Assembly (NCBI RefSeq): GCF_003149085.1
Contig: NZ_QGDT01000001.1
Coordinates: 558,001 to 622,000, forward strand
From: Dyadobacter jejuensis
GTDB taxonomy: Bacteria > Bacteroidota > Bacteroidia > Cytophagales > Spirosomataceae
Direction of reading: 5' to 3'
Length of the DNA: 64,000 bases
The notes beneath the pieces are model-generated. The model made no database searches. It was not told where the DNA came from and saw only the letters and a program-made list of their open reading frames with translations. The position numbers and the translations under genes are program-made. Shown here piece by piece: positions 27,910 to 47,906 of the stretch. Numbering within the stretch: position 1 is the stretch's first letter; every line of letters starts with the position of its first letter.

Positions 27910-30837
27910 ATGAAAATAAGGATGTTTACGAGAAAACTATGGTTGTTCGCTATCATATTAGGCAGTGTAGCGGTGAACAGTCAAGCCCAGTGGAGTGGGG
28001 CATATGGGAATGAGTGGCTGGAAAATAAATATAGCCAGGAGTGGGTGAAGATTGAAGTGAGTGAAAAGGGGGTGCAAAAAGTGACGCTTACTGGGAATTT
28101 TTTGAACAAAGCGAATCAATTGCATTTATATCACAGAGGTGAGGAGGTTGCCTTGATTTCTGCTTCGGAGTCGGAAATTGAATTTTACGGGGTACCTAAT
28201 GATGGGGAGTCAGACGCTTTACTTTACAGGCCTTATACAGGCGTTCGGGCTAATCCATACTACAGCTGGTTCTCGGATAAAAGTGCTTATTTCCTTACAT
28301 ACTCATCTACTAGTCCAACCAAGTTAGCAGTAAATCAAGCGATTATTGCACCGACGGGTACGCCTGAACCATATCATATAGCAGAGGAACTGATTGTTTA
28401 TTCGAATAGTGACAATTATGATGGTACCCAAAATTTTGTCTATCATAGTTTGGATCAAAGTTATTTTGTTGAGGGGAAAGGTCGATCAAGTAAGGCTTAT
28501 CTAAAAAAAGACAATGGTAATGGGACATTTTTTGGGAATCCAGTATTTGGTTATAACTTTCAATTAAAGAATCTAGTAGTTACGCCAACCAAACAGCCTG
28601 AAATAGAGATCTTGTTAAATGGTAGAACATTTAGTAGTAATAGCATACAAGCTTCGGTCGGAAAGTCTGCTTCAAGTTTGACAGATTATCCTGGTTTAAT
28701 TCAATTTTCAGACTTTATACCTTATAAAGCTAATTACACTATTCCAGTTAGTACAGATTTAGCATCTTCAAGCGTAGATATAAATGGAAATGGTTATTTT
28801 CAAGTTGAATCTAAAAAAGTTACCACTTCTGATTACTCAACTGGGATTTATTCGGTATCATATACTCTGCTGACTTACCCTCAGGCATTTGATATGAATG
28901 CCTCCGAAGAAAAAGTTTTCAAATTGATACCTGCGGCAGGTACCGAGACCACAATTAACATATCCAATGTCCCAACAGGAGTTAGGGTTATGAATATTAC
29001 GGACCTTAATAATGTAAGTTTGATAAATGGGGTTCAAAATGGAAATGATTTGCAGGTTGTCGTTAAGCGTGAAGTTGGACAGGAATTAATACTTTTGGTG
29101 TCGAAAAGGACAATTAATGGAGTTGGAAGTAATGTGGTTTTTAACAATCATATTCCGTCAGACAAGGATTATCTAATAATAACAAATGAGAATCTCTACT
29201 CGGAGGCTTTGAATTATGCGTCATACCGTTCCACATTAGGAGGAGGTTACAGAACTTTGGTTGTCAAAATAGAAGATATATATAATCAATATAATTATGG
29301 AGAGCCTAGTCCGGTTGCTATACGTCGTTTTGTTGATTTTATGTTAAAGGATGGAGTTCGGGATAAACATAACTTATTGTTAATAGGTCCATCTACAACG
29401 GCGTGGAACAAAATGCCTCGAGAACTGGCTGGGGATGTGCCTACCATTGGATTTCCAGGATCTGATGTTCTACTGATAGAGGGTCTCGCTGGAAAGGCAT
29501 CTGAAGTTGGTGCGATCCCAATGGGGAGAATTCCTGCCACTGAGCCGACACAAGTATCAAATTACCTTAATAAAGTCAAGAGTTATGAAGGCTCTCAAGC
29601 AGATTTAACTTGGCGAAAAAATGTCTTACATATTAGTGGTGGTTTAAGGTATAATGAAAATGTGAAATTCGGTAATTATTTGGCTAATGAAGTTGCTAAA
29701 GTAACTTCTTTTCCGTTTGAAGGGTCAGTAAAGGCTTTCATTAAGGCGGATGGGGATTACGGCTATCCGAATACAACATTAAATATTGCCTCTGACATCA
29801 ATAATGGAACAGGGTTTACTGCATATTTTGGACACGGGTCTTCCCATTATACGGATAATAATTTGGGCTATGCCACTGATCCGGCGCGAGGTTACTCAAA
29901 TTCAGGGAAATATCCCGTAATGTATTTTAATGGCTGTGGTGTTGGAAATATTTTCAATGGAGCTTTTGGCGCATATCCAACCTCCCCTGTATCAAATCAA
30001 ATACCGCTAAGTTCGGATTGGCTTTTAGCTGAAAATAAGGGTTCAATAGCATTTATAGGTAATAGTTATTATGCATTTGAAACATCTTCTTACGACTTTA
30101 TCGAGGCATTATATGATCAATTATTCAAAGCTGATGGCTCTAGAGCTACCTTAGGATCGTTACATCGTGCTGCTGGGCTGACAATTATGACGGGTAGTAG
30201 TACTGGAAGGATTGCTGCAAGTTCTTATGATATGGCAAATACGCATCAAACGCTATTGTTGGGAGATCCAGCTTTACAAGTTCTTAATGTTACCGACCCA
30301 CTACCTGTAGAATTAATGAGTTTTAAAGGTAAAATGATGGAGGATAATTCTATTGAATTAAATTGGAGAACTGCTTGGGAGAAGGGGAACAGTCATTTTG
30401 AGGTTCAGAGAAGTGGTGACTCCAAGAGTTTTAAAAGTATTGGGGTCGTTGATGGTAAAGGTGATACGAGCTCGGAGAGCTTTTATGTATTTAACGATTT
30501 AAATCCAATAGATGGGAAAAACTATTATAGATTAGTGCAACATGATCTTGGCACTGATTTGTCTTCTGGTGTTATGTCTAGAATTATTTATGTGGATGGG
30601 TTTACTTCAAAAAATATCATTGTAAAACCTAATCCTACTTATGATAAGGCTCAGTTAGTATTACCTAATGATATTCAAATTGAGTCTTTGGAGTTAACTA
30701 ATGCTAACGGACAATTATACCCTGTTCTCTTTTCAGGTCTCGAGATCGATTTATCTCAAGTTCCTAAAGGATTGTACTTACTACAAATCAAAACGGTTAA
30801 TGGGGAAGTGCTTACTAGAAAAATTTTAAAAAATTAA
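27910..30837 (+). CDS. C25 (gingipain/PorU-like) peptidase with T9SS sorting domain, first of a tandem pair
   Basis: 975 residues. Signal peptide (LWLFAIILGSVAVNSQAQ), a large beta-rich N-terminal domain with a WSGxxGNEWL start, and a C25 catalytic domain about residues 430-800. The catalytic dyad is His642 (YFGHGSSHYTDN) and Cys676 (YFNGCGVGNIF), 34 residues apart as in gingipains (33). The conserved segment GEPSPVAIRRFVD and the SGG-type beta-strands also fit. Then a fibronectin-like domain (PVELMSFKGKMMEDNSIELNWRT) and a type A sorting domain (IVKPNPTYDKAQLVLPN...VPKGLYLLQIKT). It resembles annotated PorU2-type proteins, but is shorter. Likely a surface or secreted cysteine protease or a T9SS sortase-like enzyme. 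It is 33 bp upstream of a paralogue. Confidence 0.85.
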   Translation: MKIRMFTRKLWLFAIILGSVAVNSQAQWSGAYGNEWLENKYSQEWVKIEVSEKGVQKVTLTGNFLNKANQLHLYHRGEEVALISASESEIEFYGVPNDGESDALLYRPYTGVRANPYYSWFSDKSAYFLTYSSTSPTKLAVNQAIIAPTGTPEPYHIAEELIVYSNSDNYDGTQNFVYHSLDQSYFVEGKGRSSKAYLKKDNGNGTFFGNPVFGYNFQLKNLVVTPTKQPEIEILLNGRTFSSNSIQASVGKSASSLTDYPGLIQFSDFIPYKANYTIPVSTDLASSSVDINGNGYFQVESKKVTTSDYSTGIYSVSYTLLTYPQAFDMNASEEKVFKLIPAAGTETTINISNVPTGVRVMNITDLNNVSLINGVQNGNDLQVVVKREVGQELILLVSKRTINGVGSNVVFNNHIPSDKDYLIITNENLYSEALNYASYRSTLGGGYRTLVVKIEDIYNQYNYGEPSPVAIRRFVDFMLKDGVRDKHNLLLIGPSTTAWNKMPRELAGDVPTIGFPGSDVLLIEGLAGKASEVGAIPMGRIPATEPTQVSNYLNKVKSYEGSQADLTWRKNVLHISGGLRYNENVKFGNYLANEVAKVTSFPFEGSVKAFIKADGDYGYPNTTLNIASDINNGTGFTAYFGHGSSHYTDNNLGYATDPARGYSNSGKYPVMYFNGCGVGNIFNGAFGAYPTSPVSNQIPLSSDWLLAENKGSIAFIGNSYYAFETSSYDFIEALYDQLFKADGSRATLGSLHRAAGLTIMTGSSTGRIAASSYDMANTHQTLLLGDPALQVLNVTDPLPVELMSFKGKMMEDNSIELNWRTAWEKGNSHFEVQRSGDSKSFKSIGVVDGKGDTSSESFYVFNDLNPIDGKNYYRLVQHDLGTDLSSGVMSRIIYVDGFTSKNIIVKPNPTYDKAQLVLPNDIQIESLELTNANGQLYPVLFSGLEIDLSQVPKGLYLLQIKTVNGEVLTRKILKN

Positions 30838-30869: not shown

Positions 30870-33800
30870 ATGAGAGTAACATTATTTATCCGTCTCTGTA
30901 TTTGGCTTTGTTTTTTTACCTTTTGTAAGGTAAATGCTCAGTCAAAATGGAGTGGGGTACATGGAAATGAATGGCTAGCTAACCAATATGGGCAACGATG
31001 GTTTAAAATAGTTGTTGACAGCGAAGGGTTACAGCGCGTGATTTTACCTGAAGGCCTAAAGACAAAATATGATAAACTGAAACTTTATCGGAGAGGAGTT
31101 GAGATAAGTTTAATCTCAGCTACTCCTGATTACATTGAGTTTTATGCCGAAAAGAATTTAGGTGAGTCGGATGCATTATTATATAGACCATATACCGGAC
31201 ATAAAGAAAACCCTTATTATAGCTGGTATTCTGATAAAAGTACCTATTTCCTAACATATGGGGAAGAACGGACAAAACAATCTAATACATTAGTAAGTAA
31301 GCTTGAAGATGCCGTAACTGAGAAATTTCATTTGGCAAGTAAAGTACTAACTTTTACTGAAAGTGACACTTATGATGGAAGTCAGAATTATCAATATCAT
31401 ACCTTAGATCAGAGTTATTTAATCGAAGGTAAAGGCCGTTCAAGTAAAGCCATTTTTAAGTTGATAAAGGAAGATGGGACATTTGAAGGGAATCCAAAAC
31501 TTTTGGTACCCATTCAGATAGAAAACATTGCAGAGACAGAGGATTTATCTCCAAGTCTTACTTTCCAATTGAACGGACGTACATTTAGCAGAAGCTTAGT
31601 TAAAGCTTCAATTGGTAAAAGTTCGACTAATCTTAGGGAACTTAATCAAAGTTTTAATCTCGACGGTTTTTCAATATTAAATCAGGTTATAGAACTAAAG
31701 GCTCAAAGTGATTTAAATGGAGATGGTAGTTTTGTTATTCAATTTGAACCTTCAAATAATACCTCGAGTTATTCATCAACAAGTATTTTTTCTGTAAATT
31801 TTATAGAGGTTAAGTACCCTCAATTATTTAATTTAGGATCAGCGGAGTCTAAAATTTATACTTTTCTTCCAACAAACAGAAATACAAGTACATTTATTGT
31901 GCCAGATGCCTCAGATGGAACACGAGCTTTCGATATTTCCGATCCGAGGAATCCAATAATCATCAATGGTATACGGGAAGGAAAGGAACTTAAGTGTACG
32001 ATTCAGAGAGCCCAAGGGAAGAATGCTGCTGTTATTGTGACGAACGGTTATCAAGAAATTGAGGAAATAGAAGAGGTTCATTTTACAGAGTTAAATCCAG
32101 AAGATAGTGACTATTTGATCATTTCAAATGATAAGTTAATTAGTTCCGCACAAAGCTATAGCAACTATCGTTCAAGCTCCATAGGAGGAAGCCATCGTAG
32201 TTTAGTTGTTTCTATCAAGGATATTTATAATCAATTTAATTACGGAGAACCCAGTCCAGTTGCTATACGCCGTTTTGTTGATTATATGGTAAGTGCTGGA
32301 ATCCGTAAGGATCATTATTTACTATTAGTAGGGACTTCAAATACTTTATGGAATCGAATGAAAAAGGAATTGGTAGATGAAGTCCCTACAATTGGTTTTC
32401 CTGGCTCTGATTTACTATTAACAGAAGGATTAGGTGGTGTACCTGTGGATGTTCCGGCGATACCTGTTGGTCGCCTGTCGGCTACTGAAAATGAACAGGT
32501 ATATAATTATTTGAAGAAGGTCCAGAAATATGAAGCCAATACCACAACATACTGGAAAAAGAACGTACTACATGTTAGTGGTGGTAAGTCAGCTAGTGAG
32601 ATCCAGCAACTAGCCAGCATATTGTCAAACCTTGAAAACGTCGTTAAGTCTGGACCTTTAGGGGGACATATTAAGTCCTTTGTAAAACCAAGTCCAATTG
32701 AAGTAAGTGATGTTAATATTACACCTGAAGTCAATTCTGGGGTTGGAATGATCACATATGTAGGACACGGTTCTTCCACTGTAACTGACTATGATTTAGG
32801 GTATGTTTCTGATCCAAATAGGGGTTATCTAAATTCAGAAAATTCACCCTTAATGTATTTTAATGGATGTGGGGTAGCTAATATCTTTAATGGACGAAAC
32901 AATCCAAATGTTTCAGCCGTTGACCGATTGCCGTTGTCAACGGATTGGATTTTAAATGAGACAGGGAGTATTGCAATTATTGCCAATACATATTATAGTT
33001 TTGCTTCGACCTCTGCTCGTTACTTGGATAGATTATATAATAAATTATTTAAATCTAATGATGAATTATCCATTGGGCAAATCCAGAAAGCAATTGCTGA
33101 AGAGCTTGTATCGAATGGGTTTACTGAATTTGATAGGGCCAATCTTCATCAATCACTTTTACAAGGAGATCCATCCTTAAGGCTTCTTAAAATGGATCCG
33201 TTAGACTATTCGGTGCGGAAATCTACTGACATATTTTTGAAATCAATTACACCAGGCAAACTGATTGGCGAAGAGGAAATGATAAATGTAGGTGTTATAG
33301 TATATAATAATGGTGCAAATACATCTACCCAGAGTTTTCCTATTGAAATTTCATTGTTAAACAATTTGGGGGAAATTACAAAAGTTAGTCATAATGCCGA
33401 AGCGATAGCTTATTCTGATACGATACTCGTGGAAATACCTACTCCAAATAATATATCTAGAGTGACTATTTCAGTTGATCCTGAGAATACACTTAAGGAA
33501 ATTAATCGTCTAAATAATAAGAACGATCTATTAGTTAATTGGGGAAATGCGAAGGAGGTCGGTTTTTATTCGGGTATTGATCAAACCGATGAAATAGCGC
33601 CACTGTTGTCGGTGAAATTCAATAATAATAGAATTGTCAACGAGAAAAGTTTTATAAGTTTCCCATTGATTAGCGTACAATTAATGGATAATAGTTACTT
33701 GGTAATAGACAGCACTTTAATAGATTTATATATTAAAGAGTGTTGGGATAGTTCCTGTGAATTTGTCAAGTTGGGATATTCTTCTAATTTATTAGCCATT

Positions 33801-34211
33801 TCAGCTAATGAGGATGGGTCTCTTATAGTTAATTATAATGCAGAGGGTGTAAGGACAGGGCAGTATGAGTTATTGGTAAATGCGAGAGATATCCATGGAA
33901 ATTCAATTGAAATGCCCTATAGAGTTAAATTTGAGGTTGGACAAGTTAATAATAAACCTTCGGTCCTTGTATATCCAAATCCATTTAGGGGTTTTGTGAA
34001 ATTTAACTTTGGTGATCTAAATAGTAAGTCCATAGTTATAGAGTTTTATAATAATAGTGGTCAATTTATTGATAGAGTGACTTCAAATGGTAGCCAGTCG
34101 GAGATATTTTGGTTCCCAGAAGATAAAACGGGCTTACTAATTTATAAGGCAAAAGTGACGTCTTTAACTGGGGAAATAACAGATTTTGCGGGTACAATTG
34201 TATCTTTATGA
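30870..34211 (+). CDS. C25 (gingipain/PorU-like) peptidase, second of the tandem pair
   Basis: 1113 residues, paralogous over the first 800 with the preceding gene (WSGVHGNEWLANQY versus WSGAYGNEWLENKY; GEPSPVAIRRFVD in both). Signal peptide FIRLCIWLCFFTFCKVNAQ. The dyad is His633 (YVGHGSSTVTDYD) and Cys667 (YFNGCGVANIF), again 34 apart. After the catalytic domain come a CARDB-like domain (about 790-895), a further beta domain, and a C-terminal sorting domain (LVYPNPFRGFVKFNFGDLNS...IVIEFYNNSGQ). The two proteins have diverged (roughly half identity by eye), so the duplication is old. Codon use is AT-rich, with many TTA and AAT codons. Separated from the previous gene by 32 bp, so co-transcribed. 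Confidence 0.85.
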   Translation: MRVTLFIRLCIWLCFFTFCKVNAQSKWSGVHGNEWLANQYGQRWFKIVVDSEGLQRVILPEGLKTKYDKLKLYRRGVEISLISATPDYIEFYAEKNLGESDALLYRPYTGHKENPYYSWYSDKSTYFLTYGEERTKQSNTLVSKLEDAVTEKFHLASKVLTFTESDTYDGSQNYQYHTLDQSYLIEGKGRSSKAIFKLIKEDGTFEGNPKLLVPIQIENIAETEDLSPSLTFQLNGRTFSRSLVKASIGKSSTNLRELNQSFNLDGFSILNQVIELKAQSDLNGDGSFVIQFEPSNNTSSYSSTSIFSVNFIEVKYPQLFNLGSAESKIYTFLPTNRNTSTFIVPDASDGTRAFDISDPRNPIIINGIREGKELKCTIQRAQGKNAAVIVTNGYQEIEEIEEVHFTELNPEDSDYLIISNDKLISSAQSYSNYRSSSIGGSHRSLVVSIKDIYNQFNYGEPSPVAIRRFVDYMVSAGIRKDHYLLLVGTSNTLWNRMKKELVDEVPTIGFPGSDLLLTEGLGGVPVDVPAIPVGRLSATENEQVYNYLKKVQKYEANTTTYWKKNVLHVSGGKSASEIQQLASILSNLENVVKSGPLGGHIKSFVKPSPIEVSDVNITPEVNSGVGMITYVGHGSSTVTDYDLGYVSDPNRGYLNSENSPLMYFNGCGVANIFNGRNNPNVSAVDRLPLSTDWILNETGSIAIIANTYYSFASTSARYLDRLYNKLFKSNDELSIGQIQKAIAEELVSNGFTEFDRANLHQSLLQGDPSLRLLKMDPLDYSVRKSTDIFLKSITPGKLIGEEEMINVGVIVYNNGANTSTQSFPIEISLLNNLGEITKVSHNAEAIAYSDTILVEIPTPNNISRVTISVDPENTLKEINRLNNKNDLLVNWGNAKEVGFYSGIDQTDEIAPLLSVKFNNNRIVNEKSFISFPLISVQLMDNSYLVIDSTLIDLYIKECWDSSCEFVKLGYSSNLLAISANEDGSLIVNYNAEGVRTGQYELLVNARDIHGNSIEMPYRVKFEVGQVNNKPSVLVYPNPFRGFVKFNFGDLNSKSIVIEFYNNSGQFIDRVTSNGSQSEIFWFPEDKTGLLIYKAKVTSLTGEITDFAGTIVSL

Positions 34212-34705: not shown

Positions 34706-36616
34706 TTATTTTTCAGTAAAATGGTTGACAAATTCATGATTGTCAATTTTATCTAACCAGATAGCTAGATAAACTGTGCGAGAAACATAAAACAACATAC
34801 GATTGTAAACATATAGTTGTTGTTGATCATCTTTCAAAAGTTTTAAGGCTCGGAAAAATGTATTTCTATTCACATAATTCCAAACTTTTGAACTTGTCGA
34901 TAGTAGGGGTTTACTTTGTTCATATAATCCGATAGCTGCGGTACGTCCATACATGCCAAAGTTACCTTTGGATCTTCGTAATCGTACTGATTCCGGTAAT
35001 ATTCCTTTCATCGCTTCTCTAAAATGGGCCCGTCTAATTCCATTCCCAAATTTTAACTCAGAAGGAGTAGATAGGCAAATTTCAAATAATGTTTTGTCAT
35101 AAAAAGGAAAAATACATTTTACACCATAATAATATTCTAGTATGTAGATTTCCTCTTGAAATAGAACAGCTTGTTCTTGAAAAACATCATTATATTGTTC
35201 TGGATCTGTAATATACTCAGGATTTTTTATACTATGTATTGCATTTACTGAATTGCTGTTGAGTAGCTTTTGTTTCTTTAGATTTGGTTGTAAAATATTT
35301 TTAGGTAGCAAGAATTTATCTTTTATTTTTCTAAACAAACTATATATGAAAAAAGTATTTGGAATATTAAAAAAAAATTTAGCGTCCTTAACTAATTTAA
35401 ATAATTCGAAGTAATTGAGTTTAGCCTTTTGTCTTGATAATAGGCTATTAATTGTTTTATAAACGGCTTCGATATGATCTTTGTCCCCAATATTTTGTAA
35501 TATAAGATTGCTATCATTCAATAAAGCTTTAAGTTTAGTCCATTGCCGATTATCAAATAATCTTATTAGATAATCGCCTCCATATCCAACTATTCCGTCA
35601 CCTGGGTGCCCACTAAAAAGGTTGGAACATCCTAATTCTTTTGCTTTTAACAACATTGATTGGTTAAAGGAGGATCCGTTCTGCATAAATTCTGGATGTC
35701 CATAAAGTCCTATATGTAGACTTGCACTTTCATGGAAATTTGATGTTGGAAGTACCTCGAAGTGCTTAGAATTTATTTTTTTTGACACTTCAAGTGCGTA
35801 ATAGGATTCATCAGTTAGTTGAGTATTTGTTTTTGCATAGATTGTGTAAATAGGTATTTTGGAGTCACATTCATGTATCATCGAACTAATTGAAGAAGAG
35901 TCCAAGCCCCCACTTAATTGCGAGCAAACCTTGGAAATTCCTTTCATTCCATAAGAAGTAGATTGTTTAATTGCATTTTTGAACAAATCGGCAATCTCTG
36001 TCAGACTACTTTTTTGGATGGAGTCATTTAATTCAAATTGATTTTTTACCGTAGTTTTACAATGTTGAGAATTTAAATGTATCGTATAGCCTGGCAAAAC
36101 TGTTTTGAAATATTTGTAAAAAGTTGAATCGTCGTAGGGAGCTGAATCTGCACCAAAGGTAAGGTATTGGGTCATTTTAGTACTATCCAATTCTAAGAAA
36201 TCCTTAAAGCGATCCGTTGCAACCAATGAAGAAAGGCTAGAAGAAAAGGCAAAAAATTTATTTGGGATATGAATATAATAAATAGGTGTTATTCCAAATA
36301 TATCCCTTGTAATTTGTATCTCTTTTGAAGCTATACAATAAATGATGGTAGTATCTTTAAAAAATGTATTATTTTGATGTTTTGTACCTAATTCAGTTTC
36401 GAATGCTTCATGATTTGGAAAATGACATACCGAATTGTCATCTATTGTATGACTATCAACTTTTCCATTGGTATGAATAATATTGAAGCGAAGAGTGTGG
36501 GGAACAGAGAGAGGAGAATTTAAAAATCCCACAAAATTTTTTCCAAAAGAAAATAAATTGTGGGATTTAATCTGCAAATTGTCTATTGATTCTTGGCTAA
36601 AATATCCAAAGAACAT
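34706..36616 (-). CDS. Lasso-peptide cyclase-type asparagine synthetase homologue
   Basis: 636 residues. It has the AsnB two-domain layout. The N-terminal glutaminase-like part begins MFFGYFSQES, lacking the catalytic Cys2 that true glutaminase-type AsnB requires. The C-terminal synthetase domain has the PP-loop S235-G-G-L-D-S (QLSGGLDSSSISSM), a downstream GHPGDGIVGYGGDYLIRL, and a terminal region ELKFGNGIRRAHFREAM. Loss of Cys2 with retention of the PP-loop is the pattern of lasso cyclases (McjC-type), which adenylate a side-chain carboxylate and close a macrolactam. The precursor gene at 36646-36789 lies 29 bp upstream on the same strand. Strongly AT-rich. Confidence 0.85.
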   Translation of the reverse strand: MFFGYFSQESIDNLQIKSHNLFSFGKNFVGFLNSPLSVPHTLRFNIIHTNGKVDSHTIDDNSVCHFPNHEAFETELGTKHQNNTFFKDTTIIYCIASKEIQITRDIFGITPIYYIHIPNKFFAFSSSLSSLVATDRFKDFLELDSTKMTQYLTFGADSAPYDDSTFYKYFKTVLPGYTIHLNSQHCKTTVKNQFELNDSIQKSSLTEIADLFKNAIKQSTSYGMKGISKVCSQLSGGLDSSSISSMIHECDSKIPIYTIYAKTNTQLTDESYYALEVSKKINSKHFEVLPTSNFHESASLHIGLYGHPEFMQNGSSFNQSMLLKAKELGCSNLFSGHPGDGIVGYGGDYLIRLFDNRQWTKLKALLNDSNLILQNIGDKDHIEAVYKTINSLLSRQKAKLNYFELFKLVKDAKFFFNIPNTFFIYSLFRKIKDKFLLPKNILQPNLKKQKLLNSNSVNAIHSIKNPEYITDPEQYNDVFQEQAVLFQEEIYILEYYYGVKCIFPFYDKTLFEICLSTPSELKFGNGIRRAHFREAMKGILPESVRLRRSKGNFGMYGRTAAIGLYEQSKPLLSTSSKVWNYVNRNTFFRALKLLKDDQQQLYVYNRMLFYVSRTVYLAIWLDKIDNHEFVNHFTEK

Positions 36617-36645: not shown

Positions 36646-36789
36646 TTAAACTTGGCTAGAAACATTGTTAGCATCCGTACTTCCTGGTTTGGCTCCTTTT
36701 GTCAACGTCTTCACATTCCCAATTTTATTTAAAACGGGCTTGCGGTAGCTTTTCTTTGCTGTGTTAGCGTGCGAGTTCATGTTTATCAT
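36646..36789 (-). CDS. Lasso-peptide precursor (RiPP)
   Basis: 47 residues from ATG 36789 (44 if the next ATG at 36780 is used). The leader has the lasso recognition motif Y15-xx-P18-x-L20-xxx-G24-xxxxx-T30: YRKPVLNKIGNVKTLT. Thr30 is the penultimate leader residue. The predicted core after Lys31 is GAKPGSTDANNVSSQV (16 residues). Gly1 is the classical amine and Asp8 the carboxylate for an 8-residue ring. Directly upstream of the cyclase with a 29 bp gap. No earlier frame signals are seen. It is too short for normal gene callers. Product unproven. Confidence 0.82.
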   Translation of the reverse strand: MINMNSHANTAKKSYRKPVLNKIGNVKTLTKGAKPGSTDANNVSSQV

Positions 36790-36934: not shown

Positions 36935-37645
36935 TTAGAGGTTATTACCATAACTTAGAATCGTTCTGGTCTTATGAGTGCCCGATTCGATGATATAATT
37001 TCCGATACAAGCCTCATCCTGGCAATACTCGTAGTTGATCTGTTGGTCACTTACCAGCCCAGCTCCTAGACCATATTGTTTGATGCCTATGTACTTATTA
37101 ATCAGCGAGGAGTCGCGCCGTTCTACTACGGTCAGGCTCCTGTCGAATGACAAGTCGCCAATGGCTAGAGGCTGGTCAATATCCTCATAATGGTACTTCC
37201 GTGGGTCTTGACTGTTATATAGGTTGCCATTCCATTCCAGACCCGAGCCCACTGGGAACACCAGCGAGAAGGTGGTTTGGTTATCGAGGTTTGTCAGGAT
37301 TTTATCGGGAGACTTCGTGATGGCATATTCCTTAGTTTTTTGCCAATAATCGGCTTCAGAATTTCGTGTGTACCGTGCTACGATATAGGTCGTCGAGAAT
37401 TCCGACTGTTCTGCGATACGGCTCACTTCGTCTTTCTCCTGCCAGGTCTTAACCACGGGGGCCGTTTGGCCTGCCGAGTACGTTGTTTCCGCTACCTGAT
37501 AGACCTGGTATTGCCCGAGTTCCAATGGATAATAGGCATAGCTATCTATAGGCAAGGTATCGTCCTTCTGGCAGGCGTTGAACGCTATGCTTAGTAAGAA
37601 GGCAATAAACGGGGCCAATGGCCTTGTTAGTATAGGTGTTCTCAC
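36935..37645 (-). CDS. Hypothetical lipoprotein
   Basis: 236 residues. Signal peptide with lipobox FNACQKDD (Cys about residue 25), so membrane-anchored in the envelope. The mature part has no recognised domain. It contains the beta-rich stretches YYPLELGQYQVYQVAETTY and IKQYGLGAGLVSDQQINYEY. Base composition returns to the chromosome average here, so this gene marks the right border of the AT-rich island. Not obviously linked to the lasso locus. Confidence 0.75.
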   Translation of the reverse strand: MRTPILTRPLAPFIAFLLSIAFNACQKDDTLPIDSYAYYPLELGQYQVYQVAETTYSAGQTAPVVKTWQEKDEVSRIAEQSEFSTTYIVARYTRNSEADYWQKTKEYAITKSPDKILTNLDNQTTFSLVFPVGSGLEWNGNLYNSQDPRKYHYEDIDQPLAIGDLSFDRSLTVVERRDSSLINKYIGIKQYGLGAGLVSDQQINYEYCQDEACIGNYIIESGTHKTRTILSYGNNL

Positions 37646-38483: not shown

Positions 38484-40304
38484 TTATTTTTCTACACGTA
38501 TTAGCGCACTACCCTTGCCTATCCCCGTCCCACAGCCGCTTTTAAGGCTGCTGATTTTGTATTCCGTAGTTTTTTCTGGCGTTACGGTGATCAGATAGGG
38601 GTTCAGAAAAGTCCCACTGATGCTACTTCCATCGGATAGTGTAAAGGACCATGGAGGGAGGCCGTTTTTGAATTTGAGCATGATCCGTTTGGATTGGCCT
38701 GGCGCCACGATCCCCTGTCCCGATACTTCGCCTAATGCTTGATTAGGGGCAATAAGGTCGAGCTCAGCCTGGGTGCTCGACACCGCCGGTGACGAGGAGA
38801 TAATGCGTATTAGCTGGGTTTTGATCGTATCCGTTTGAGCAATCCCCTTTAGCTGTACCTGCATAGCGGTAGGGGTTACGGTGGTGGGCAGGTCTACGAA
38901 ACGCCCCGTTTTATCGGTGATTTGTACCACAAACCGATTATTAGCATTGAACCGGCCACTGGTCTTATAGGGGATTTCAATAGTTGAGCCCAAGCATGCC
39001 ATATTCTGCGGCAGCCGATCGATATGGATAGACACTGGTGGGCTCTTTACCGATACTTTGGCTTGTCCCGAAAAAGTCCCAACCCCACAGAGGCCACCGG
39101 CAGAGCTAATTTGGTAAACCGTGTTGTAGAGGGGTTTGATCTTGATCTTATGGGGAGACTCCAAAATATTATTCTCGTAAGTTCCATCAGAAAGTAGAAC
39201 GAACCAAGGCCCTTCTCCACTGAACTTAACCGTGAGTTCGCCGGTCTGGTCCTCGTCTAGGTGCAATGAGTCCTTCAATAAGGTTGTAACGGTGGGTTCT
39301 ACTAGGCTAATGTTGGTAGCTTGGCTGTACAATACAGGAGCAGTTGAGGCTACCCGCAATTTATAATTGCCGTGTTTGTAGCTGGCTGGAATTTGGGTGA
39401 CTAGCTGTCCGCTAGAATCAGGAGTAGAAATACTCTTAAATACGCCACTCTTATCGGCCAGTTGGATTACAAATTTATTCCCTTTATTATATTTTCCGGT
39501 GGCGTTAATTGGAACTTGGAAAGGGATACCACTGCATACCTTGGCATATTTATCTGAATCCTTTAGCTCAAGCTTCGGTTCAGGGTTGTCGTCGACGTTG
39601 ACGATAACTTGTCCACTGGCTTGCCCACTACCACATGCATTGGCAATACCCTGAATCGTATAGGCTTTCACTGCTTGTGGCCTCACCCTTACATAATGAG
39701 GGTTGGAGAGCGTTTGCATGACCGTCGTGCTGTCCGATAATTGGAAAGACCAGGGAGCCGCACCGCTCAAACTCACCTTCAGAGAAGCTTCTTGCCCTGG
39801 CATGATGCGTATGGTTTGGCTGCCATCGATTACCGATAATTGTGCCTGTGGCTTGTCTAAGAGTCGCAGTTCGACTTGGTTGCTCTTGGCAATGGGGATG
39901 GTACTGACGACCTGCAGCCTATAGGTTTCACCACCGTTTTTATATGAAGGGATTACGGCTTGTATGGGGCTTTTTTTAAATGGTTTCGAAATGCCTACCG
40001 CTTTTCCTTGGCTGTCGATTAGCTGAGCTATAAATGTATTGTCCTCATCGTAGGGCCCCACCGGTTGGAAAGGGATGGATATGGTGGTGCCTGGGCATAC
40101 CGATAGAAAGTCCATAGAGGGAAGCTGTATTTGGAAAGTATATAAGGTGTCTGCCTGTCCTTTCAGCTCCTTCTCTAAGGCCTCTTCGGCCTCCTTTTCG
40201 GTTACTATTTGGGTGGTGTCGGAAGTAGAGACCGCCGGCGACTGGGCTTGTGCGCTACTCACCAGCAACACATAGATTAGCAACAGCAATGGGTAACGAT
40301 TCAT
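38484..40304 (-). CDS. Secreted protein with three tandem repeats of about 180 residues
   Basis: 606 residues. Signal peptide (YPLLLLIYVLLVSSAQAQ), an acidic/Ala linker, then three units starting at VCPGTTISIPF (about 68), VCSGIPFQVPI (about 258) and ACLGSTIEIPY (about 435). Each has the pattern Cys-x-G-x-x-IxIP, an F(I/V)(A/V)QLxDxxG strand, PWSFxLSDG or PWFVLLSDG, and a second cysteine in ACGSG, LCGVG or GCGTG. Beta-sandwich (Ig- or PKD-like) domains are likely, and the paired cysteines may form a disulfide in each unit. No T9SS sorting domain, and no enzyme motif. Function unknown to me. Confidence 0.8.
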   Translation of the reverse strand: MNRYPLLLLIYVLLVSSAQAQSPAVSTSDTTQIVTEKEAEEALEKELKGQADTLYTFQIQLPSMDFLSVCPGTTISIPFQPVGPYDEDNTFIAQLIDSQGKAVGISKPFKKSPIQAVIPSYKNGGETYRLQVVSTIPIAKSNQVELRLLDKPQAQLSVIDGSQTIRIMPGQEASLKVSLSGAAPWSFQLSDSTTVMQTLSNPHYVRVRPQAVKAYTIQGIANACGSGQASGQVIVNVDDNPEPKLELKDSDKYAKVCSGIPFQVPINATGKYNKGNKFVIQLADKSGVFKSISTPDSSGQLVTQIPASYKHGNYKLRVASTAPVLYSQATNISLVEPTVTTLLKDSLHLDEDQTGELTVKFSGEGPWFVLLSDGTYENNILESPHKIKIKPLYNTVYQISSAGGLCGVGTFSGQAKVSVKSPPVSIHIDRLPQNMACLGSTIEIPYKTSGRFNANNRFVVQITDKTGRFVDLPTTVTPTAMQVQLKGIAQTDTIKTQLIRIISSSPAVSSTQAELDLIAPNQALGEVSGQGIVAPGQSKRIMLKFKNGLPPWSFTLSDGSSISGTFLNPYLITVTPEKTTEYKISSLKSGCGTGIGKGSALIRVEK

Positions 40305-47306: not shown

Positions 47307-47906
47307 TTAGTTCCAAGTTAAGGTGTTGAGTAGATGCACCATATCTTGTTGGATAAAGTCGATGGCAGGAGCCAACGAATCGTTCTTTACCGCAGTCGGA
47401 AAATAGATGGCACCTCTCAAAAAATGGCGGCTGCTGTCGGTGGTATAGAACTGATACGGGCTTGGTACGGGGCCTTCTATCTTGAAAATGATGGCCGTTT
47501 TGCCGGTTTTCGACAGTACGCGTTGTTCTTGAATGGAGGAGGCCCTTATCTGGTGCTTTGCTGCGAGCTTATAGCTGTCGTCTATATATTGATGCAAAAG
47601 GGTAGGGTTTCCGTTCAGAGGCTTGTAGGTGATCTGAATATTAGCGTCTATATCGGGGTAATGAATGAAGATCCAGTCTTTGCCAGCCGTTTTGAAGGTG
47701 TCGGGAAGGACTTGGGCCCATCTTGATACGTCGAATTGATAGGGGTATTTTTTATCGACTTTCACGTACCGGTGTGCGGGTAAGTTAAGCCGGTTATAGC
47801 CCTTAGGTTTGGGGGCATAGTAGGCCTCTTTTTGCTGGCCACAGCCTGCTACTAGAATGAGGCAAGCCCAAAGTATGGTGTAAAAATAAGTAGGTGTGAA
47901 TTTCAT
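47307..47906 (-). CDS. gldD: Gliding motility lipoprotein GldD
   Basis: 199 residues. Signal peptide with lipobox LVAGCGQQ (Cys about residue 22). The GldD core starts YYAPKPKGYNRLNLPAHRYVKVDKKYPYQFDVSRWA and is followed by WIFIHYPDIDANIQITYKPLN and a C-terminal YFPTAVKNDSLAPAIDFIQQDM. GldD is an envelope lipoprotein essential for gliding and T9SS function in Flavobacterium. It usually lies beside gldE, but here gldE is at 11969-13273. Terminator-like repeat follows. Confidence 0.88.
   Translation of the reverse strand: MKFTPTYFYTILWACLILVAGCGQQKEAYYAPKPKGYNRLNLPAHRYVKVDKKYPYQFDVSRWAQVLPDTFKTAGKDWIFIHYPDIDANIQITYKPLNGNPTLLHQYIDDSYKLAAKHQIRASSIQEQRVLSKTGKTAIIFKIEGPVPSPYQFYTTDSSRHFLRGAIYFPTAVKNDSLAPAIDFIQQDMVHLLNTLTWN

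Follow-up and report, generated by a model that had tools for sequence, protein, structure and literature searches.

We found that a 47-codon open reading frame in the window (the whole stretch of Dyadobacter jejuensis DNA analysed, 64,000 nucleotides) can with considerable confidence be taken as the precursor gene of a lasso-type peptide whose biosynthetic genes are split between two fixed chromosomal loci. A lasso precursor (A) beside its cyclase (C) is the best-supported reading of the frame and its larger neighbor, and the pathway very likely works like a lasso pathway. Judged by its genes, the system belongs to the lasso class, an assignment in which the genes are not clustered, C and the RRE protein B1 score under the curated cut-offs of their models, and threading is a prediction. 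The features of the locus are collected in Table 1.

Table 1. Coordinates of the precursor, its cyclase and their neighbors within the window
Feature	Coordinates	Strand	Evidence
Lasso precursor gene (A), 47 aa	36646..36789	-	NF033521, homologues in Dyadobacter cyclase loci, purifying selection
Leader, residues 1-31, YxxPxL + G + Thr at -2	36697..36789	-	sequence
Core GAKPGSTDANNVSSQV, predicted Gly1-Asp8 macrolactam, Gly-Ser within ring	36649..36696	-	residue conservation
Lasso cyclase (C), 636 aa, AsnB-like, without Cys2	34706..36616	-	NF033535, PF00733, AF2 model
hyp236 lipoprotein, lipobox Cys25, LolA/YmcC-like beta fold, recurrent C neighbor	36935..37645	-	alignment, AF2 model
PorU2-type C25 peptidase, convergent with cyclase, weak type IX tail match	30870..34211	+	NF052324, PF01364
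Second C25/PorU2-type peptidase, tandem, type IX tail	27910..30837	+	NF052324, TIGR04183

The precursor gene and the adjacent cyclase

The short frame encodes MINMNSHANTAKKSYRKPVLNKIGNVKTLTKGAKPGSTDANNVSSQV, its coordinates including the stop codon. Rereading the window sequence bore out the coordinates, strand and sequence given in the initial annotation, together with its leader pattern YxxPxLxxxGxxxxxT, which is matched exactly (Y15xxP18xL20xxxG24xxxxxT30), and the spacing that it proposed for an 8-residue macrolactam, Gly32 and Asp39 being core residues 1 and 8. The frame therefore has both the YxxPxL...G leader with Thr at -2 and a residue 1 followed by an acidic residue within positions 7-9, here Gly1 and Asp8, a pair with exceptions in the genus. 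The Thr at -2 of lasso leaders is called invariant in the available text of PMC10885120. A search of the 47-residue peptide against lasso-precursor models, suggested earlier as a check, gave a narrow pass for the NCBIfam model NF033521 (lasso_leader_L3), the score being 19.5 bits and the cut-off 19. When this model was run in six frames over the 5.76-Mb genome, the frame was the sole match above the cut-off (E = 0.009; next E = 1.24), and six-frame searches of 14 control genomes gave no match above it. Scans of the window for tRNAs and for Rfam families were both empty.

The AsnB-like frame starts 29 bp on from the precursor, the gap originally reported, and the description of its product as a protein without Cys2 that keeps the PP-loop also holds: the N-terminus reads MFFGYF, and SGGLDSS is retained at residues 235-241. 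Of the NCBIfam models, the lasso cyclase NF033535 matches the protein best (162.8 bits, E = 1.3e-47), with a score far under the curated cut-off of 525; the asparagine synthase model TIGR01536 gives 117.4 bits against a cut-off of 267.1, and PF00733 gives 90.1 bits. Across the whole genome, NF033535 matches only this protein at E 0.001. We therefore have an AsnB-like C with an ATP site and no Cys2, though under the NF033535 cut-off, and one that lacks the catalytic Cys2 of glutamine-dependent asparagine synthetases. A functional asparagine synthetase, the outcome that the initial annotation named as fatal to its proposal, is disfavored by the absence of Cys2 and by the lead of the lasso model (162.8 versus 117.4 bits). 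Both the lasso-cyclase and the asparagine-synthase models match 33 of 33 relatives, with best E-values of 7e-138 and 2.4e-67, respectively. An alignment of cyclases (A3) comprised 32 chosen ones and that of the window.

The AF2 model of the cyclase (pLDDT 90, pTM 0.91) has the fold shared by AsnB and beta-lactam synthetase. It superimposes on the hydroxyamidotransferase TsnB9 with a Z of 28.7 over 489 residues at 3.6 A, on carbapenam synthetase with a Z of 24.1, on beta-lactam synthetase with a Z of 22.1 and on AsnB with a Z of 21.8, and no lasso cyclase was among the solved structures matched by VIA-align. Given these matches, the fold alone cannot tell a lasso cyclase from its relatives. Searching PDB sequences with the window cyclase alone returned no match; a profile search matched TsnB9 and AsnB.

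Conservation of leader and core

Homologues of the short frame accompany the cyclase throughout the genus. Using a pattern confined to the leader, we found a precursor frame in 42 of 43 Dyadobacter cyclase loci (the window locus included), in all 30 loci of a second Dyadobacter set that has species in common with the first, and in 18 of 25 loci of other Spirosomataceae, one of which is an unplaced Cytophagales MAG. The sole Dyadobacter locus missed, L071, yielded a precursor with another pattern. These scans ran over whole loci, beyond the gap beside the cyclase, and covered 43 of the 48 Dyadobacter genomes (all but G064, G148, G172, G181 and G193); another pattern scan had partly favored GS, and the leader-only scan repeated it free of that bias. 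The absence of such frames beside the cyclase in relatives had been put forward as evidence that would count against a precursor, and the 42/43 and 30/30 loci show the opposite.

The same is true of a leader conserved apart from the Gly/Asp pair, the other outcome held to be damaging. Among 36 unique Dyadobacter leader/core pairs, drawn from 40 of the 43 loci, Gly1 is present in 31, Asp8 in 30 and both in 30, leaving 5 exceptions for Gly1 and 6 for Asp8. Three loci gave no core in that set (L071, L076 and L081); with these added the counts become 32/39 for Gly1 and 31/39 for Asp8. None of the 36 pairs has an acidic residue at core positions 2, 3, 4 or 6. In an alignment of 19 chosen precursors (A4), Y15, P18, G24, T30 and core D39 are invariant, and GS..D occurs in every unique frame of three locus sets (38/38, 29/29 and 18/18). 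The nearest precursors, from D. tibetensis and G213, have G1, K3, G5, S6, D8 and the C-terminal QV in common with the window. For the leader we obtained a pN/pS of 0.12 and for the core one of 0.21 (14 close pairs with overlapping members, hence not independent), values that indicate purifying selection on the precursor codons.

Outside Dyadobacter the core is of another type. Spirosoma and its relatives (L108-L126 and others) have LT-LKxGSxxD cores without Gly1, in which the spacing from Thr to Asp is one residue shorter than in most Dyadobacter precursors; these cores are compatible with neither Gly1 nor an identical ring count. A precursor of this sister-genus type (LT-LKTGSSTD core) also occurs in D. 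diqingensis, at the PorU2 locus (L097:9406-12339, order A-C-hyp236-<PorU2), as though one cassette had replaced another at that site.

Lasso peptides usually need bulky plug residues. Of the 37 unique Dyadobacter cores, 32 contain F, W or Y behind residue 8; the tail is without a bulky residue in 5, including the window core (tail ANNVSSQV, with Val as its C-terminal residue) and its two nearest relatives, and for the window peptide a threaded knot may therefore not hold. This bears on an alternative in which the product of the A-C pair is branched-cyclic but unthreaded, closed by the Gly1-Asp8 macrolactam and no true lasso. Such a ring needs just Gly1, Asp8 and an AsnB-like ligase, and the low score of the cyclase against the NF033535 cut-off is compatible with it. 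Against it, the lasso cyclase is nevertheless the best family match of the window protein, lasso-type B1 and B2 are encoded in the same genomes (see below), and the large majority of cores do have F, W or Y behind the ring. We consider an unthreaded product improbable.

A second locus with B1 and B2

The window encodes neither B1 nor B2; each has a single match in the genome, on contig C4 at 110.4-111.1 kb, where the gene order is aldehyde dehydrogenase, B1 (88 aa), B2 (149 aa), an HprK-like kinase and an NTP_transf_5 nucleotidyltransferase (NTase). B2 passes NF033537 (lasso_biosyn_B2) with 75.1 bits against a cut-off of 33. The best model for B1 is lasso_PqqD_Bac (NF033536), at 69.7 bits and under its cut-off of 80, and among solved lasso B1 proteins it matches 9x90 (E = 2.4e-13) and TbiB1 (E = 4.2e-12). 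The kinase match is weak (PF07475, 18.5 bits, below cut-off). In searches of PDB sequences, B2 had one unrelated match only (E = 0.61) and the best match of the kinase was at E = 0.18. The genome thus has both a B1 (RRE) and a B2 (transglutaminase-like peptidase), located apart from A and C; clustering of the four genes is usual but is not required for the chemistry. The initial annotation was right that the precursor is paired with its cyclase but went too far in letting that pairing define a lasso locus, since B1 and B2, on another contig, are part of the pathway as well.

This arrangement is a property of the genus. The cyclase was found in 48 of 48 Dyadobacter genomes examined (34/34 and 14/14), as was B2, and in none of the 48 do the two lie within 10 kb: they are on different contigs in 27 genomes and on one contig in 21. 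In the latter the distance is 0.36-4.8 Mb, with 15 of the 21 at 0.56-0.70 Mb; the value of 0.36 Mb (G139) runs to a second, divergent cyclase. The order B1-B2-kinase-NTase recurs in all 30 of the B2 loci examined (of 48), with the aldehyde dehydrogenase ahead in 28. The A-C pair, for its part, is mostly at one chromosomal place: uridine kinase is in the flanks of 25 of 30 Dyadobacter loci and PorU2 in those of 26. What had been presented as a new member of the lasso class in a single bacterium is therefore a lasso system, as claimed, but one that is genus-wide and split.

Two other accounts of the missing neighbors were considered and rejected. A pathway broken for want of B1 and B2 is contradicted by the presence of both on contig C4. 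An assembly effect is contradicted by positions well inside contigs (the contig of the A-C locus is 1.03 Mb long and has the locus at 594 kb; that of B2 measures 503 kb, with B2 at 110 kb) and by the 21 genomes in which C and B2 are far apart on one contig.

Some genomes have more cyclase loci than B2 genes. A single B2 accompanies three C loci in G190 (D. bucti) and two in each of G096 and G157. Precursors of their own are present at the additional loci (L086, L091, L116 and L131), and these extra copies beside a canonical one are also the four of the 30 Dyadobacter loci without PorU2. The Runella rosea plasmid NZ_CP030852.1 carries a precursor, a cyclase, a lipoprotein and a C25 peptidase, with no B2 in its 87,933 bases; two B2 genes lie on another contig of G063, the genome whose contig C3 has the cyclase coordinates of this plasmid. 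A cyclase search of plasmids returned 3 records, one of them (Runella) nearly full length. Several A-C cassettes per single B2 are most simply read as B1-B2 acting in trans on precursors with a constant leader. Because both loci are in every Dyadobacter genome examined, presence alone cannot show that one depends on the other, and the co-occurrence of C and B2 is not proof of processing in trans.

In other lineages the homologous A, C, B1, B2, kinase and NTase genes form joined clusters, as seen in Spirosoma, Runella and cyanobacteria. Of 27 genomes assigned to Spirosoma by contig coordinates, 19 have C and B2 no more than 10 kb apart, and B1 or B2 is in the flanks of 15 of 25 loci of other Spirosomataceae/Cytophagales and of 22 of 25 more distant loci, compared with 0 of 30 in Dyadobacter (some flanks end at contig ends). 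In Rhabdobacter (L109), aldDH-B1-B2, A-C, PorU2 and kinase-NTase all fall within 20 kb, which suggests one ancestral region that was later broken in Dyadobacter.

The closest known gene sets are of the paeninodin/pseudomycoidin type, which likewise comprise separate B1 and B2, an HprK-like kinase, an NTP_transf_5 nucleotidyltransferase, A and C. The Dyadobacter system differs in having its genes at two distant loci, and no exporter was recognized among the scanned neighbors at either. The leader differs too, with YxxP in Dyadobacter and, in the portion of PMC13381572 available, Trp favored by paeninodin RREs; the same portion describes paeninodin-kind genes in Bacilli as patchy, with at least 102 inferred gain/loss events. 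The C-terminal Ser of paeninodin-type peptides is a known phosphorylation site according to the accessible part of PMC8498205. The window core lacks this kinase target, and Ser is the last residue of only 8 of 63 unique family cores (4 of the 36 Dyadobacter pairs), so that a C-terminal phosphorylation site cannot be general here. Of the hydroxyl residues, just the ring Ser recurs in every core identified, which would make it the likeliest target of modification. A precedent for a leader peptidase encoded away from its precursor exists in the unclustered lanthipeptide proteases, as far as PMC8960859 is available; these belong to another RiPP class, whereas here the whole B1-B2-kinase-NTase set is remote, at a conserved locus and genus-wide.

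The Bacillota clusters for linear polyphosphorylated peptides (LPP) have an RRE, an HprK-like kinase, an NTase and a Tyr leader motif in common with the Dyadobacter system; they differ in having no cyclase and, as the partial text of PMC13381572 has it, a signal-peptidase-like enzyme in place of B2. By analogy with them, the distant B1-B2-kinase-NTase set could serve another peptide, for example a linear phosphorylated one of the LPP kind, with some other unlinked peptidase processing A, and indeed neither the leader model, the cyclase model nor the genes of the locus revealed a precursor or cyclase beside B1-B2. The locus nevertheless retains B2, the canonical lasso leader peptidase in the passages of PMC13381572 at hand, no other frame with a lasso leader in the genome passes the model, and sister genera have these genes in a single cluster with A and C; we regard two separate peptides as very unlikely. 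That the cyclase is a small-molecule amidotransferase of the asparagine- or hydroxyamide-synthase kind beside a coincidental frame is hardly credible, since its AsnB fold, its structural and profile matches to TsnB9 and AsnB, the asparagine-synthase matches in 33/33 relatives and the NCBI name of the Runella homologue (asparagine synthase-related) are set against the absence of Cys2, the higher score of the window protein with the lasso model and an adjacent frame that is conserved and under purifying selection.

Proposed maturation and envelope neighbors

For the split lasso pathway we propose the following course. A and C would be made from the window locus, and B1, the PqqD-family RRE from the other contig, would bind the constant YxxPxL leader. 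B2, encoded beside it, would cut after Lys31, one residue beyond Thr30. C would then activate Asp8 with ATP and join it to the Gly1 amine, giving an 8-residue ring and the tail ANNVSSQV, and the kinase and nucleotidyltransferase encoded with B1-B2 would probably decorate the product, most plausibly on the ring Ser. As B1-B2 would read the constant leader only, a single such locus could suffice for several A-C cassettes, in which core and cyclase may diversify in step.

The neighbors of the A-C pair point to the cell envelope. Upstream of A is the lipoprotein hyp236, and downstream of the cyclase are two tandem C25 peptidases, convergent with it. The one next to the cyclase scores 685.6 bits with NF052324 (cut-off 450), 222 bits with PF01364 and, for a type IX tail, 19.8 bits with TIGR04183, under the cut-off of 23; the other scores 597 bits with NF052324 and 34.3 bits with TIGR04183 (cut-off 23), and a second C25 peptidase likewise adjoins PorU2 in syntenic Dyadobacter loci. 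In 40 aligned hyp236 sequences (alignment A2, made up of copies other than L108, L137 and the second ones in L090 and L099), Cys25, W101, W138, N141, C208 and C213 are invariant. The best folds for its AF2 model (pLDDT 91) are the Bacteroidetes lipoproteins 3fzx (YmcC-like, Z 13.6) and 4fvs (Z 12.7), followed from Z 9.3 downward by beta-barrels, lipid-transfer and LolA-type proteins. Two Dyadobacter species have a tandem second hyp236 copy upstream of the usual one (L090:7966-8715 and L099:7841-8587).

In a count over 99 C matches and 28 B2 places, a sample with few of the weak or partial C matches and with 14 of the Dyadobacter genomes left out, at least 71 of the 99 C loci have hyp236 within 5 kb, and at least 52 have a PorU2 within 10 kb. 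The Dyadobacter order is hyp236-A-C-<PorU2, that of Spirosoma PorU2>-<hyp236-C>-<NTase-<kinase-<B2-<B1-<A and that of Runella C-A-PorU2-<hyp236-B1-kinase. Outside Dyadobacter, PorU2 is in the flanks of 17 of 25 loci of other Spirosomataceae/Cytophagales, and 16 of the 25 have both PorU2 and hyp236; none of 25 more distant loci (cyanobacteria, Rhodothermus and others) has either. We rejected the idea that hyp236 and PorU2 are lasso-specific families, as they occur in at least 144 and at least 147 of 200 family genomes, compared with 94 for C, and shared ancestry of the region may accordingly explain part of the association. Among the matches listed, 78 hyp236 copies are away from C, of which 10 are near a PorU2 and 6 of these within 12 kb of B2; further copies could shift this share, which as it stands counts for a specific link. 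On balance, the case for a functional link of the peptide with the lipoprotein and the C25/PorU2-type peptidase, the product probably acting at the envelope, is about evenly poised.

A 606-aa protein at 38484-40304 (-), whose main Pfam match is Ig-like (POM152, E = 4e-9), has counterparts of 62-76% identity beside the locus in Dyadobacter, and the gliding motility lipoprotein GldD lies at 47307-47906 (-; PF25593, 205.6 bits), as suits a gliding organism. The lasso genes of sister genera, and those of an extra Dyadobacter locus, often adjoin a gene for a secreted protein whose C-terminal part is type-IX-like and whose N-terminal part varies (L106, L109, L110, L113, L114, L117, L118, L128, L131 and L133; L165:11901-13127). 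One neighbor on the Runella rosea plasmid is annotated by NCBI as an ice-binding family protein, and some of these secreted neighbors resemble ice-binding proteins.

A more specific picture can be offered only tentatively and is rather doubtful: a housekeeping lasso peptide, with a fixed B1-B2-kinase-NTase hub and interchangeable A-C cassettes (on a plasmid in a relative), might be an endogenous ligand, inhibitor or cargo of the C25/PorU2-type peptidase and the LolA-like lipoprotein, with a tie to type IX secretion and with the ring Gly-Ser as the kinase site. A literature search, with most subscription journals outside its reach, returned no paper linking a lasso peptide to type IX secretion or PorU2; for lasso peptides in Dyadobacter or Spirosoma the only match was on another RiPP. 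In the same literature we found no report of a split, genus-wide lasso pathway with envelope partners, which we take to be new.

The presence of the pathway in each of the 48 Dyadobacter genomes examined, mostly at one place, suggests a physiological role over that of an occasional weapon. Genome mining that demands B1/B2 beside the precursor would miss loci of this kind. One B1-B2 pair serving several precursor-cyclase cassettes would offer a ready-made way to learn which enzyme recognizes the leader and which the core, and the neighboring lipoprotein and C25 peptidases are concrete candidates for what lasso peptides may do in the bacteria that produce them.
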